A stretch of DNA of 64,000 bases. It comes from Tichowtungia aerotolerans (lineage in GTDB: Bacteria; Verrucomicrobiota; Kiritimatiellia; Kiritimatiellales; Tichowtungiaceae). Shown in pieces: positions 49,817 through 54,282 of this stretch (position 1 is its first letter; every line of letters begins with the position of its first letter). The stretch is from contig NZ_CP047593.1 in assembly GCF_009905215.1 (NCBI RefSeq), forward strand, positions 2,980,900-3,044,899, read 5' to 3'. Made by a program: the position numbers and the translations under genes. The notes under the pieces were generated by a model. That model did not search any database. It saw only the letters and a program-made list of their open reading frames with translations, and had not been told where the DNA came from.

Positions 49817-50779
49817 ATGCAGAACCAAACAAATATTAAAGTCTGGAGTGAGCGTTGGCGGCTGGGGGCGCTGGAATCACAGGAATTAATTCGGATTGGT
49901 CTTGTTTCTGTGATGATTGGCCTGCTGTTTATGCTGTTCCATATGCTTGGAAACACGGTTGAAAATGTCAACAGCCGTTCGGCGTTCACATGGATGGTTG
50001 CCCGGTGGGGCGACACAATTTCTTTTGGAGCAGACTATTCTCACGGTTATTTTATTCCGTTTGTGAGCCTTGCTGTTCTCTGGTACCGCCGAAAAGAGAT
50101 TTTTTCGGTTGAAACCTGGGTCGATTGGCGGGGGTTGGTTGTTGTGATCGGCGCATTGTTTATGCATTGGCTGGGCGCAAAAATGCAGCAGACGCGACTC
50201 TCTTTGATGAGTCTGGTGTTACTGACATGGGGGATTCCTTTTTATTTATTTGGATGGCGCATTGCAAAAAATCTTATTTTCCCCTGTTCGTATCTTATTT
50301 TTTGTATTCCGCTGAACTTTCTGGATGTGATCGCATTTCCATTGCGCATTTTTTCCACAAAAATCGCCGTGGGTATGCTGAATGGCTTTGGAATTGAAGC
50401 TGTTCGATCGGGAACAGCGATCCTGATTCCGTCGATGCCGACCGGAATGGATGTCGCCGACCCTTGTTCCGGCTTACGATCTCTTTTGGCGATGACGGCA
50501 TTGACAGCCGTTTACGCCTATTTCACCCAGAAAACGTTTATTAAAAAATGGATCCTGTTTCTTTCGTCTATTCCGTTGGCGGTGATCGGGAATATTGCCC
50601 GAATCGTAACGATCGCTTTTGTTTCAGAAGCTTTAGGGCCCAAACCGGCTCTTGGGCTCTATCATGATTATTCCGGCTATATCCTGTTTGCTGCCGCAAT
50701 TACCGCAATGGTTATTTTCGGTGGATTGCTGAACATGGGTTTCAAGGAGATGTTAAAAAAATGGAAATTCGTTCGCTAA
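49817..50779 (+). CDS. Exosortase (XrtB-like)
   Basis: A 320-residue integral membrane transpeptidase with about eight hydrophobic segments. The exosortase triad is visible: Cys in DPCSGLRSLLAM (~216), Arg in IGNIARI (~261) and His in LGLYHDYSGYI (~283). An early YSHGYFIPFVSLAVLWYRR segment is typical. Exosortases process PEP-CTERM proteins and attach them to the cell surface, with polysaccharide loci as usual neighbours. The next gene, epsI, overlaps it by 19 bp, the common xrtB-type pair. No PEP-CTERM substrate is encoded in this window. Confidence 0.92.
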   Translation: MQNQTNIKVWSERWRLGALESQELIRIGLVSVMIGLLFMLFHMLGNTVENVNSRSAFTWMVARWGDTISFGADYSHGYFIPFVSLAVLWYRRKEIFSVETWVDWRGLVVVIGALFMHWLGAKMQQTRLSLMSLVLLTWGIPFYLFGWRIAKNLIFPCSYLIFCIPLNFLDVIAFPLRIFSTKIAVGMLNGFGIEAVRSGTAILIPSMPTGMDVADPCSGLRSLLAMTALTAVYAYFTQKTFIKKWILFLSSIPLAVIGNIARIVTIAFVSEALGPKPALGLYHDYSGYILFAAAITAMVIFGGLLNMGFKEMLKKWKFVR

Positions 50780-51537
50780 CTCCGCATTTGACATTGATCG
50801 GCCTGCTGGTTCTGACCGCTCTGGCTCTCGCGTTTACGGTGGATGTTACTTTGAGTGATACACCGGGGGTTCGTATGGAACTGCCTTCTCAGATTGATGA
50901 CTGGAGCGGCGATGAGCTGCGCTATTCTCACGACCGGGATAATCCAAAGCAATATCGTGTCAGTGAGCTGGAGTTGCCGGATATTGATCCGGAGACAGGA
51001 AAAAAACTCTTTACGATGAGTTATGCAGAGTATGAGGCTCTGCCTCACGATACGGAGTTTGTTAAATCGATTTATACTAACAATACAGATGGAAATGTTT
51101 TCGTTTCAATTGTTCTTTCCGGGAAGGAGAGAAACAGTATCCATCGCCCTCAACGTTGTCTGGTCGGGCAGGGCAACACGATTGTGGGGACGGAACGGAT
51201 GGAGATCCCGTTGGCGGGTCGAGAGCCTTTGAAGGTGGATGTGTTAAAAACGGAACGCCGGTATCGTAATGCAAACGGTGAAATGCAAACCTATTACGGA
51301 TATTACGCCTATTGGTTTGTTGGGCAAAGCCGCGAGACGCCCAGCCATTATGAACGCATGTTCTGGCTGGCTTGGGACCGAGTCGTGCACAGTGTTGCTC
51401 ATCGTTGGGCGTATATTGCTGTGTCTGGACAACGGGCTGATGAAAACTCTCAGGACTACAAACAGGACATGAAAGATTTTGTTGAGAAGCTCTATCCGTA
51501 CCTGCTGATTGATCATTCCCGCCACGACAAAAGTTGA
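50761..51537 (+). CDS. epsI: EpsI-like exosortase-associated protein
   Basis: A 258-residue protein with one N-terminal membrane anchor (about residues 9-28) and a periplasmic domain. PSQIDDWSGDELRYSHDRD resembles the start of the EpsI domain, and VFVSIVLSGKERNSIHRPQRCLVGQG the central H-x-P-x-x-C motif; YWFVGQSRETPSHYERMFW follows. EpsI proteins accompany exosortase B and serve export or polysaccharide steps not fully understood. It is the last gene of the locus; its stop overlaps the TTGACA proposed for leuA. Confidence 0.88.
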   Translation: MEIRSLTPHLTLIGLLVLTALALAFTVDVTLSDTPGVRMELPSQIDDWSGDELRYSHDRDNPKQYRVSELELPDIDPETGKKLFTMSYAEYEALPHDTEFVKSIYTNNTDGNVFVSIVLSGKERNSIHRPQRCLVGQGNTIVGTERMEIPLAGREPLKVDVLKTERRYRNANGEMQTYYGYYAYWFVGQSRETPSHYERMFWLAWDRVVHSVAHRWAYIAVSGQRADENSQDYKQDMKDFVEKLYPYLLIDHSRHDKS

Positions 51538-51562
51538 CAAACTCAAAACAGTTGCTTATTTA
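51534..51562 (+). promoter_or_regulatory. Candidate promoter for the leuA leader
   Basis: Consensus -35 TTGACA (51534-51539), 17 bp, TATTTA (51557-51562). The -35 is perfect, the -10 weak. Transcription would begin near 51569, just ahead of the leader ORF, and would leave it with a very short 5' end. Inferred. Confidence 0.45.
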
Positions 51563-51576
51563 TATGCCTCGTACTT

Positions 51577-51624
51577 ATGAAAAACAGATTCAACAGCTTG
51601 GAACTCCTTCTACTCGCCGGGTAA
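51577..51624 (+). CDS. Leucine leader peptide
   Basis: A 15-codon ORF, MKNRFNSLELLLLAG, stop TAA at 51622-51624. Five of fifteen residues are leucine, four in a row (codons CTC CTT CTA CTC, 51604-51615), the pattern of ribosome-stalling leader peptides that sense charged tRNA-Leu. It stands between a consensus -35 element and a terminator, 175 bp ahead of leuA. No clear Shine-Dalgarno is visible, so translation may be leaderless or from a weak site. A longer overlapping ORF (51564-51656) is less leucine-rich and is not preferred. Confidence 0.75.
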   Translation: MKNRFNSLELLLLAG

Positions 51625-51688
51625 GCCCTGCGGGAGTTTTGCGTTTGTTGAATTAGCAGTCAGTTAGTTTCGCTAAACCTCTCCGCAG
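51612..51688 (+). promoter_or_regulatory. Leucine attenuator: pause hairpin and antiterminator
   Basis: Segment 1, ACTCGCCGGG (51612-51621, overlapping the last Leu codons), pairs with segment 2, CCCTGCGGGAGT (51626-51637), with TAAG loop. Segment 2 can instead pair through CTGCGG-G-AG (51628-51636) with segment 3, CTCCGCAG (51681-51688), which is the left arm of the terminator. A ribosome stalled on the Leu run covers segment 1 and would free segment 2, forming the antiterminator; with leucine plentiful, 1:2 and the terminator form. Confidence 0.7.
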
Positions 51689-51706
51689 CGCGGAGAGGTT
51701 TTTTTG
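51676..51706 (+). terminator. Rho-independent terminator (attenuator) before leuA
   Basis: AACCTCTCCGC-AGC-GCGGAGAGGTT: perfect 11-bp stem (51676-51686 / 51690-51700), 3-base loop, followed by TTTTTGTTTTG. It lies 46 bp before leuA's ATG. Confidence 0.93.
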
Positions 51707-51751: not shown

Positions 51752-53434
51752 ATGAAAACACCGAAATACAAAGTGCCGGAATCGTTTGACATGCCTGACC
51801 GCCAGTGGCCGTCGCGCACTCTGACCGACAGCCCCGTCTGGTGTTCTGTTGATCTGCGTGACGGGAATCAGGCACTGCCTGATCCGATGACTCCCGATCA
51901 GAAGCGTGAGTATTTTAAGATGCTGTGCGACATCGGTTTTAAACATATTGAAGTCGGATTCCCGTCTGCCAGTCAGGATGATTTTGATTTCTTTCGTGGT
52001 CTGATCGAGGAGGATCGTGTTCCGGAAGACGTTTTTATCATGGGGCTGACGCAGTGCCGTTCCCATCTGATTGAACGGACTTTTGAGGCATTCAAAGGAG
52101 TTAAGCAGGGGATTGTCCATGCTTATATTGCGACATCTGACCTGCATATGAAGCAGGTATTCGGAATGGATCGGCAGGATACAATTGAAACGGCCGTGGC
52201 GGCCACCCGTCAGATCCGTGAATTGGCCGATGCTATGCCGGAAAGTGATATCCGTTACGAATTTTCTCCAGAAGAGTTCACGGATACCGATCCCGAATTC
52301 TGTCTGGAATTGTGTAAGGCGGTTTATGATGCCTGGGGCAAAGCAACCCCGGAGAAGCCGCTGATTCTGAATCTGCCGGCGACGGTGGAGCGTCGACCGC
52401 CAAATCATTATGCAGATATGATTGAGTGGTTTTGTTCGCGCTTCCCGAACCGGGACCGTGTTCAGATTTCTCTGCATTCTCATAATGATCAGGGAATGGC
52501 GGTTGCCGCCACCGAACTGGCACTGATGGCCGGCGCGGACCGTGTGGAAGGCACACTGTTCGGGCACGGAGAGCGGACTGGCAACGTGGATCTGGTTACC
52601 GTTGTCGGCAACCTGTTTTCGCGCGGTATCGAGACAGGACTGGATTTTTCTAATATGGAAAAGGTTGTGGAGTCGGTCGAGCGTTTGACCGGTATGCCGG
52701 TGTATTACCGCCAGCCGTATGCCGGAGAGTATGCTTTCACAGCGTTTTCAGGGTCACATCAGGATGCCATCAACAAAGGGATGCACCGTTTGGACAAAGC
52801 CTCCGAAATCTTTGGAATGCGCTGGAAAGTTCCATATCTGCATATCGACCCGGCCGATCTGGGGCGCAGTTTCGAACGGCTGATTCGTATTAACTCGCAG
52901 TCTGGAAAAGGCGGTATTGCATGGGTGCTGGAGCAGGAGTACGGGGTCCATATTCCCAAAGCCATGCAACCGGAATTGCGCGAAGAGGTGCAGCGGTACA
53001 GTGAAGAGGTTTCCCGGGAACTGAGCTCGGAAGAAGTGTACAAAATTTTCGAAGAGAAATTTTTACGGCCGGAAGGACCGTACGAACTGGCAGGCTATTG
53101 GCCGCGCCCGGATGATAACGATCCGACATTTATTCATGGAGAAGTGAAAATCCTGGTGAATGGAGAAGCCAAAACGTCGGTGGCCGATGGAAACGGCCCC
53201 ATTTCGGCATTTGTAAATGCTGTTCGGGAGCTGGCCGGCATTGAGTTCGGTGTGGATGACTATCATGAACAGGCGATCGGGAAGGGTGCTGATGCGCAGG
53301 CTCTGGCATATGTGCCGTTGAAGTTGAAAGATAACGGTGTGATTTTTGGTGTTGGATCGGATTCAAATATTGATCAGGCCGCCGTGCGTGCCATTATTGC
53401 CGGACTGAACCGTATTGAAGGACAACAAAAATGA
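51752..53434 (+). CDS. leuA: 2-isopropylmalate synthase (long, IPMS2 type)
   Basis: A 560-residue enzyme for the first committed step of leucine synthesis, condensing acetyl-CoA with 2-oxoisovalerate. Motifs: WCSVDLRDGNQALPDPM near residue 30 (metal and catalytic residues), VGFPSASQDDFDFFR near 69, SLHSHNDQGMAVAATELALM near 240 and GTLFGHGERTGNVDL. The C-terminal ~130 residues form the regulatory LeuA dimer domain. The N-terminal pattern (P-x-F-D-M-P-D-R-Q-W-P) marks the long fungal/actinobacterial-type IPMS2. It follows an attenuator that reads leucine supply and overlaps aroE by 4 bp. Confidence 0.96.
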   Translation: MKTPKYKVPESFDMPDRQWPSRTLTDSPVWCSVDLRDGNQALPDPMTPDQKREYFKMLCDIGFKHIEVGFPSASQDDFDFFRGLIEEDRVPEDVFIMGLTQCRSHLIERTFEAFKGVKQGIVHAYIATSDLHMKQVFGMDRQDTIETAVAATRQIRELADAMPESDIRYEFSPEEFTDTDPEFCLELCKAVYDAWGKATPEKPLILNLPATVERRPPNHYADMIEWFCSRFPNRDRVQISLHSHNDQGMAVAATELALMAGADRVEGTLFGHGERTGNVDLVTVVGNLFSRGIETGLDFSNMEKVVESVERLTGMPVYYRQPYAGEYAFTAFSGSHQDAINKGMHRLDKASEIFGMRWKVPYLHIDPADLGRSFERLIRINSQSGKGGIAWVLEQEYGVHIPKAMQPELREEVQRYSEEVSRELSSEEVYKIFEEKFLRPEGPYELAGYWPRPDDNDPTFIHGEVKILVNGEAKTSVADGNGPISAFVNAVRELAGIEFGVDDYHEQAIGKGADAQALAYVPLKLKDNGVIFGVGSDSNIDQAAVRAIIAGLNRIEGQQK

Positions 53435-54282
53435 ATAAACTTGCAGTTTTGGGCCACCCGATCGGCCACACACTTTCGCCGGTGATGCACAACGCTTCTA
53501 TTCAAGCGCTTGGTTTGGCGGACCAATATGAATATGACAAGCTCGATGTCGCACCGGATGCATTGCTGGAACGCCTTTCCCGGTTTCCTTCTGAAGGCTA
53601 TGCCGGGGTCAACCTCACAATTCCACTCAAAGAAGTCGCATTCCAAGGGTTGGAAAAGCTCGACGAAAGCGCTAGGACTCTTGGGGCCGTGAATACGGTT
53701 GAATTTACGGATGACGGTCCGGTCGGTCATAATACCGACGGGTACGGCGTGCTCAAAGCGCTTGAGGAGGCATTCGGAAAAACCGTTGAGAACGATTCCG
53801 TTTTTGTGCTTGGTTGCGGAGGGGCTGGGCGCGCCGTCGCTCTGATGGCCGCGCTGAATGGAGCAAAAACGGTCACGTTGGCTGATGTTGACGCGGAGCG
53901 TCTTGCTAATCTGGCAGCCGAAATTGCGGAAAAGGCTCCAACGGTTGACATTTCCCAATGTTTGGAAAAAGCGGAGCAAGTTGAGAAATGCCGTGCAGCC
54001 GATCTGGTGATTCAGGCTTCACCGGTCGGGATGAAAAAGGATGATCCGTCGTTGATGCCGCCCGAAGCGTTTCGCGAAGGGCAGCGTGTTTTTGATCTGA
54101 TCTATATGTATCCGGAAACGACTTTGCTCGGCGTTGCCAGAAAACAAGGGGCTCAGGTTGCAAACGGTTTGGGGATGCTGCTGCATCAGGGAGCCCGGGC
54201 GTTCAAAATCTGGACCGGTATCCAGCCCGATGTCGCGGCAATGCGTACGGCCCTGGAACTGGCGGTTTACGGAGATCGCTAG
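53431..54282 (+). CDS. aroE: Shikimate dehydrogenase
   Basis: A 283-residue NADP-dependent shikimate dehydrogenase. Motifs: VLGHPIGHTLSPVMHNAS (shikimate binding), GVNLTIPLKEVAF (catalytic Lys in the N-L-T-x-P-x-K motif), GAVNTVEF, HNTDGYG, and VLGCGGAGRAVALMAAL (cofactor binding). C-terminal NGLGMLLHQGARAFKIWTG fits. Two palindrome copies are inside: A-F-Q-G-L-E-K directly after the NLT-PLK helix and I-S-Q-C-L-E-K in the NADP domain. ATG overlaps leuA's stop (ATGA), so leucine attenuation probably also governs aroE. Confidence 0.95.
   Translation: MNKLAVLGHPIGHTLSPVMHNASIQALGLADQYEYDKLDVAPDALLERLSRFPSEGYAGVNLTIPLKEVAFQGLEKLDESARTLGAVNTVEFTDDGPVGHNTDGYGVLKALEEAFGKTVENDSVFVLGCGGAGRAVALMAALNGAKTVTLADVDAERLANLAAEIAEKAPTVDISQCLEKAEQVEKCRAADLVIQASPVGMKKDDPSLMPPEAFREGQRVFDLIYMYPETTLLGVARKQGAQVANGLGMLLHQGARAFKIWTGIQPDVAAMRTALELAVYGDR
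53640..53656 (+). repeat. Palindrome TTTCCAA-N3-TTGGAAA
   Basis: ATTCCAA-GGG-TTGGAAA, one mismatch, read F-Q-G-L-E-K in aroE. Confidence 0.85.
53952..53968 (+). repeat. Palindrome TTTCCAA-N3-TTGGAAA
   Basis: TTCCCAA-TGT-TTGGAAA, one mismatch, read S-Q-C-L-E-K in the NADP domain of aroE. Confidence 0.8.

Follow-up and report, generated by a model that had tools for sequence, protein, structure and literature searches.

Leucine attenuation by a translating ribosome is represented in Proteobacteria by leuL of Escherichia coli, which makes use of the rare leucine codon CTA, and Rfam holds a Leu_leader family, which we take to be RF00512. A survey of leader-peptide systems published in 2010 was presumably the work of Naville and Gautheret. 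According to its available text, and setting aside the survey's own Firmicutes case, no groups other than Proteobacteria and Actinobacteria were then known to have such systems (PMC2965389, partial text). The ilv-leu operon of Staphylococcus aureus has a leucine-rich attenuator peptide, a terminator and a proposed read-through at low leucine, but it differs from the locus described here in belonging to Firmicutes, in beginning with ilvD and in being under CodY control as well (PMC5794164, partial text). The actinobacterial LEU element shares a run of Leu codons before leuA; it is described in the accessible part of the source as a pseudoknot with pairing to the leuA Shine-Dalgarno sequence, whereas here a terminator is present and that pairing is not conserved (PMC1262725). 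Two tryptophan leaders are also relevant. In trpL/rnTrpL of Sinorhizobium meliloti, which acts by transcription attenuation, the leader ORF lies at the 5' end of the RNA, a precedent for a near-leaderless leader ORF, although the amino acid is tryptophan and the RNA begins exactly with the ATG, whereas a few untranslated nucleotides are predicted here (PMC7298713, partial text). In the wider PVC group, trpL of Chlamydia is a putative cis-attenuator that the available part of the source presents as atypical and not experimentally validated; it differs from the present leader in being a tryptophan system (PMC7755916). In the open-access literature on Verrucomicrobia, Kiritimatiellota and Planctomycetes we found no leucine attenuator, which is weak evidence of absence; the mechanism considered here is classical, and the lineage is apparently undescribed in this respect.

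We analysed a leader before leuA and aroE in Tichowtungia aerotolerans. It lies in a window of 64,000 nt (the whole stretch of DNA that was analysed), taken from a genome of 3.88 Mb in a single contig. In window coordinates, the features are as follows.

51534-51562, plus strand: predicted sigma-70-type promoter, with TTGACA at 51534-51539, a 17-nt spacer and TATTTA at 51557-51562.
51577-51624, plus strand: leader peptide ORF of 15 codons, MKNRFNSLELLLLAG followed by a stop; its ATG is 14 nt past the -10 box and has no Shine-Dalgarno sequence.
51604-51615, plus strand: control codons CTC CTT CTA CTC, four successive Leu, read from the sequence.
51590-51651, plus strand: 1:2 hairpin (protector), with its 5' arm inside the leader ORF and segment 2 within its 3' arm.
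51628-51636, plus strand: core of segment 2, CTGCGGGAG, with antiterminator pairing to segment 3 (native duplex about -15 kcal/mol).
51679-51688, plus strand: core of segment 3, CTCTCCGCAG, common to terminator and antiterminator.
51676-51705, plus strand: intrinsic terminator, the 3:4 stem and seven T, supported by sequence, terminator scan and covariation.
51752-53434, plus strand: leuA, 2-isopropylmalate synthase of the long type (NCBIfam NF002991, 725 bits, above cut-off).
53431-54282, plus strand: aroE, shikimate dehydrogenase (TIGR00507, 222 bits, above cut-off).

The initial annotation had described a Leu-run ORF, a 1:2 hairpin, a competing 2:3 pairing and a perfect 11-bp terminator with a T-run, and every detail of this anatomy was confirmed from the sequence. 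The terminator stem AACCTCTCCGC/GCGGAGAGGTT (51676-51686/51690-51700) has 11 perfect pairs around an AGC loop, with the T-run at 51699-51705. The -10 box is a weak match to consensus, and a consensus promoter scanner gave no call for it. The 187-nt leader region folds with -61.8 kcal/mol (z = -4.05), a value equalled by none of 200 dinucleotide shuffles. A terminator scan of the region returned one site compared with an average of 0.5 in shuffles, so that the terminator by itself is unremarkable.

With a Leu-codon leader ORF, an intrinsic terminator before leuA and a predicted start upstream, the leader is very probably a transcription attenuator that works through a translating ribosome and responds to charged leucyl-tRNA. 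RNA polymerase would initiate just ahead of the leader ORF. When leucine is sufficient, the ribosome would pass the Leu codons and cover segment 2; the 3:4 terminator would then form and transcription would end before leuA. When leucine is scarce, the ribosome would stall on the Leu codons, the rare CTA among them, and cover the 5' arm of the 1:2 hairpin, leaving segment 2 free for segment 3. With 2:3 paired, no terminator would form and leuA-aroE would be transcribed. Stalling, leucine as the signal and leucine-controlled read-through are the steps that we infer.

A search of 58 related genomes at E 1e-100 or better found LeuA in 36. In f1, the genus to which the window belongs, 12 of 14 genomes had it, and in the sister family f2 it was present in 24 of 29. 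Where sufficient upstream contig was available, a leader ORF and terminator stood upstream of leuA in 9 of 10 f1 and 18 of 22 f2 genomes. A covariance model (R1) built from these 27 leaders gave 31 strong matches in the 58 genomes (E 2e-10 or better), one per genome, corresponding to 30 leaders and one remnant (G041) that keeps only the terminator and the 3' part. Leaders directly before leuA were thereby identified in 30 genomes of two families, 27 by reading and 3 by the model (G004, G011 and G029). The latter had no part in training the model, and each has a Leu-rich ORF and a LeuA N-terminus shortly downstream; G004 and G029 were not counted at the leuA contig, which starts within the gene. 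Also outside the leader counts were G007 (8 nt upstream) and G034 (no upstream sequence). No leader was present in G001 (f1), in G021 and G030 (900 nt examined) or in G017 (330 nt present), and neither LeuA nor R1 found a match in G012, G035, G039 and G040. A further 12 R1 matches were weak (E 5.9e-5 to 0.009), six of them on the opposite strand of the leuA element itself (G018, G019, G020, G022, G038 and G042), one on the opposite strand of the G024 element and three partial (two in G002, one in G013). The remaining two (G036/L153 and G037/L154) are terminator-like hairpins without a Leu-rich ORF, located before a gene that we take to be purD-like.

Retention of a Leu-rich leader ORF by relatives, a test named beforehand, was thus found in 30 genomes, three f1 leaders having N or S in the four-Leu run (LLNL in G003 and G004, LLSL in G011). 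The f1 peptides follow the pattern MxxxFNSLELLLLAG(E/D)TLREFCAC, and f2 peptides are MKNEFNNLLLGLLLTGNDPVEAVCL and similar. Because the ORF, the pairing and the terminator are kept before leuA in 30 genomes, chance can be excluded as their origin. Codon choice is strongly biased: CTA accounts for 61 of 193 Leu codons in the 30 leaders, 27 of which have at least one. It makes up 21 of 1,004 Leu codons in 24 ORFs of the window, and the leuA genes that accompany the leaders use it for 3 of 934. The comparison with window ORFs gives a Fisher p of 7e-35, which is overstated since the leaders are related. Counts by codon position in f2 are 506, 646 and 839, a third-position excess in data taken from related pairs.

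A transcription start downstream of the ORF had been named in advance as refuting the proposal; a predicted, conserved promoter lies upstream of the ORF in 28 of 30 leaders. All leaders but G010 and G011 (28 of 30) have TTGAC 38-44 nt ahead of the ATG. The distance from the end of the -10 box to the ATG is 9-14 nt in these 28, and each of the 19 f2 leaders has 9 or 10 nt. Transcription usually begins 6-8 nt behind the -10 box, which would place the start only ~1-8 nt ahead of the ATG. A Shine-Dalgarno-like motif precedes none of the 30 leader ORFs versus 27 of 27 leuA genes. Based on this absence and on the position of the -10 box, the leader ORF is probably translated almost leaderless.

The position of the promoter also bears on a rival explanation, in which the hairpin serves only to end transcription of the exosortase operon before it, the Leu-rich ORF has no role and leuA is read from a promoter of its own further downstream. 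An exosortase-associated gene does end at 51537, ~140 nt 5' of the terminator, and in the f1 genome G001 leuA stands directly behind an EpsI-like (exosortase-associated) gene with neither leader nor terminator. However, in 28 of 30 cases the promoter separates the leader from the gene before it, a plus-strand promoter scan from the terminator to leuA found none, and f2 genomes have a different-looking upstream gene from f1, yet the leader and terminator remain linked to leuA (by eye). A terminator of the exosortase operon would also leave the Leu codons, the CTA bias and the 2:3 geometry unexplained, and we consider this explanation very unlikely.

A search for covarying stems in relatives had been proposed as a check on all three pairings of the attenuator; covariation is clear for 3:4 only, with one covarying pair for 1:2 and no compensatory change for 2:3. 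The 3:4 stem has standard pairs in 99.6% of cells (27 sequences), with four pairs changed on both sides, and none of 500 shuffles came up to it in percentage paired or in covariation score; 27 of 27 leaders have the terminator. In the 1:2 hairpin, none of the 21 predicted f1 pairs is changed on both sides, while the f2 hairpin is 92.3% paired with one covarying pair; RNAalifold over all 27 leaders recovers only part of it. The antiterminator pairing, whose presence in relatives was another test named beforehand, is retained: the 2:3 helix is 97.5% paired and almost invariant in f1 and 87.2% paired in f2, compared to 33-60% when slid. Wobble changes occur in the f2 helix, and no compensatory changes were found in 2:3 of either f1 or f2. 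Across 27 species, the native 2:3 duplex has a mean of -16.5 kcal/mol versus -9.6 kcal/mol with a shuffled segment 2. Swapping segments between families was tried as a test of co-evolution and did not discriminate, as the duplex was not weakened (-15.3 kcal/mol for f1 segment 2 with f2 segment 3, and -17.3 kcal/mol for the reverse, against the native mean). Given the lack of compensatory change and the harmless swap, conservation of 2:3 may partly reflect the role of segment 3 in the terminator. Since 3:4 usually outweighs 2:3 at equilibrium, the switch must be kinetic.

We modelled the switch by folding leaders with a ribosome in place, hiding the RNA upstream of its leading edge and leaving segment 4 not yet made. 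This edge was assumed to be 12 nt away from where the codon in the A site begins. The test used the Leu run and covered the 27 leaders, out of 30, that make up alignment A1. On average, segment 3 formed 10.8 pairs with upstream RNA when the ribosome stood on the last Leu codons, 4.7 when it stood five codons further on and 6.2 without a ribosome. The stalled value exceeded the value past the run in 27 of 27 leaders, in agreement with the original proposal that a ribosome stalled on the run leaves segment 2 available to segment 3. Shuffling the stretch from the Leu codons to segment 3 reduced the stalled value to 6.2 pairs, and in 24 of 27 leaders the native value reached or passed the 95% level of 20 shuffles. 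In silico, antiterminator and terminator therefore exclude each other according to the position of the ribosome.

The same folding test speaks to control by the leader RNA without translation, through a T-box, a riboswitch or a protein-bound antiterminator. In 22 of 27 leaders the stalled value was over 0.5 pair higher than that without a ribosome, and in the other 5 the two were about equal, 2:3 forming similarly with no ribosome, as such control would allow. Nonetheless, an Rfam search of the leader up to E 10 gave no Leu_leader and no T-box match, no family reached its gathering score and the best matches were unrelated (E 0.18 or worse). Together with a Leu-rich ORF of rare-codon bias kept between ATG and stop, this makes a translation-independent device extremely unlikely. 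A role for the Leu run in translational control of leuA, by pairing with the leuA Shine-Dalgarno sequence, would have a model in the LEU element described before leuA in Actinobacteria (PMC1262725, partial text). In the window, TCCTT in the Leu run is indeed complementary to AAGGA ahead of leuA, but a 5-nt match at the leuA Shine-Dalgarno sequence, the mark of a LEU element, occurs in only 7 of 27 leaders compared with the terminator in all 27, and we find this possibility hardly credible.

The window's leader is itself a shortened variant. In relatives the ORF reads through segment 2 and the stop codon lies behind it, giving 24 codons versus 15 in the window, where GGGTAA-GCC stands in place of the relatives' GGGGAA-ACC and translation would end at the TAA at 51622-51624 (relatives GGGGAAACC, window GGGTAAGCC). 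The remaining codons of the longer ORF are still recognisable 3' of this TAA, which suggests that the truncation is a recent change. With the ribosome on the TAA, segments 2 and 3 formed 1.7 pairs versus ~11 on the Leu codons, figures from an earlier version of the folding test in which, for most f1 species, a Leu codon not belonging to the run entered the average. In this model, a ribosome on the window's TAA is still predicted to cover enough of segment 2.

The remark that leuA and aroE overlap, so that leucine supply would also tune shikimate dehydrogenase, holds as far as gene order goes: the window overlap is real (4 nt, ATGA), and in 32 of the 34 f1/f2 loci inspected aroE comes directly after leuA. 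The exceptions are G005, which ends within leuA, and G028, which has no aroE in 1.5 kb. Among relatives, overlap is limited to part of f1 (gaps approximate). Leucine supply would plausibly also set AroE, provided no internal promoter exists. In G025 (L017) and G022 (L024) an additional gene stands between the leucine terminator and leuA, and it would also fall under leucine control. Directly 5' of the attenuator, an exosortase gene (TIGR02602) and an EpsI-like gene occupy 49817-51537. Elsewhere in the same genome, ilvB and two trpE-like genes have no matching codon run plus terminator upstream (by eye).

A wider survey covered 84 leuA upstream regions of at least 200 nt each, of which 78 belong to the phylum and 6 to other named contigs. 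Twenty regions had an ORF with four or more Leu in six residues versus 2.7 expected from shuffles, and 6 had one with five or more in six versus 0.2 expected. In the f18 set, which has the other LeuA type (TIGR00973; 10 loci above cut-off, L186-L195, weaker paralogues left out), a Leu-rich ORF and terminator lie upstream in 10 of 10 loci, a seemingly separate copy of the design that favours the attenuator reading of the window's leader. In 9 of 10 loci the stalled 2:3 value reached or passed the 95% level of 40 shuffles; it stayed up when the ribosome moved on in L192 and was equally high without a ribosome in L188, L189 and L193. In the f40 set (the best 30 of 35 matching genomes, L156-L185, with the gene start placed by a fixed 1500-nt offset), a Leu-rich ORF such as MTTNLRGLLELRPLLLGLATR precedes leuA in 17 of these best 30, and a terminator-like hairpin is found only in a minority, most having no strong terminator. 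Tentatively, leucine attenuation of leuA could be old, or could have arisen repeatedly, across Verrucomicrobiota in the GTDB sense. It would use near-leaderless ORFs with the RNA 5' end at the start codon and span two LeuA types, in a terminator form (Kiritimatiellales and f18) and a form with a conserved Leu-rich ORF, mostly no strong terminator and another output (f40).

Compared with proteobacterial leu/ilv attenuators, the leader shares the Leu-run ORF, the 1:2/2:3/3:4 logic, a terminator before a leu gene and the use of CTA. It differs in having no Leu_leader match, no Shine-Dalgarno sequence, a promoter abutting the ORF, a long-type LeuA with aroE and, in relatives, an ORF that crosses segment 2. 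The 30 natural variants, with one shortened ORF and several losses, pose the question of what an attenuator can do without, and the leader set raises that of fast ribosome loading on an ORF with almost no 5' leader. For these bacteria, the finding would bring Kiritimatiellota, and probably a large part of Verrucomicrobiota, into the known range of classical ribosome-mediated leucine attenuation, and would tie shikimate dehydrogenase to the supply of leucine.
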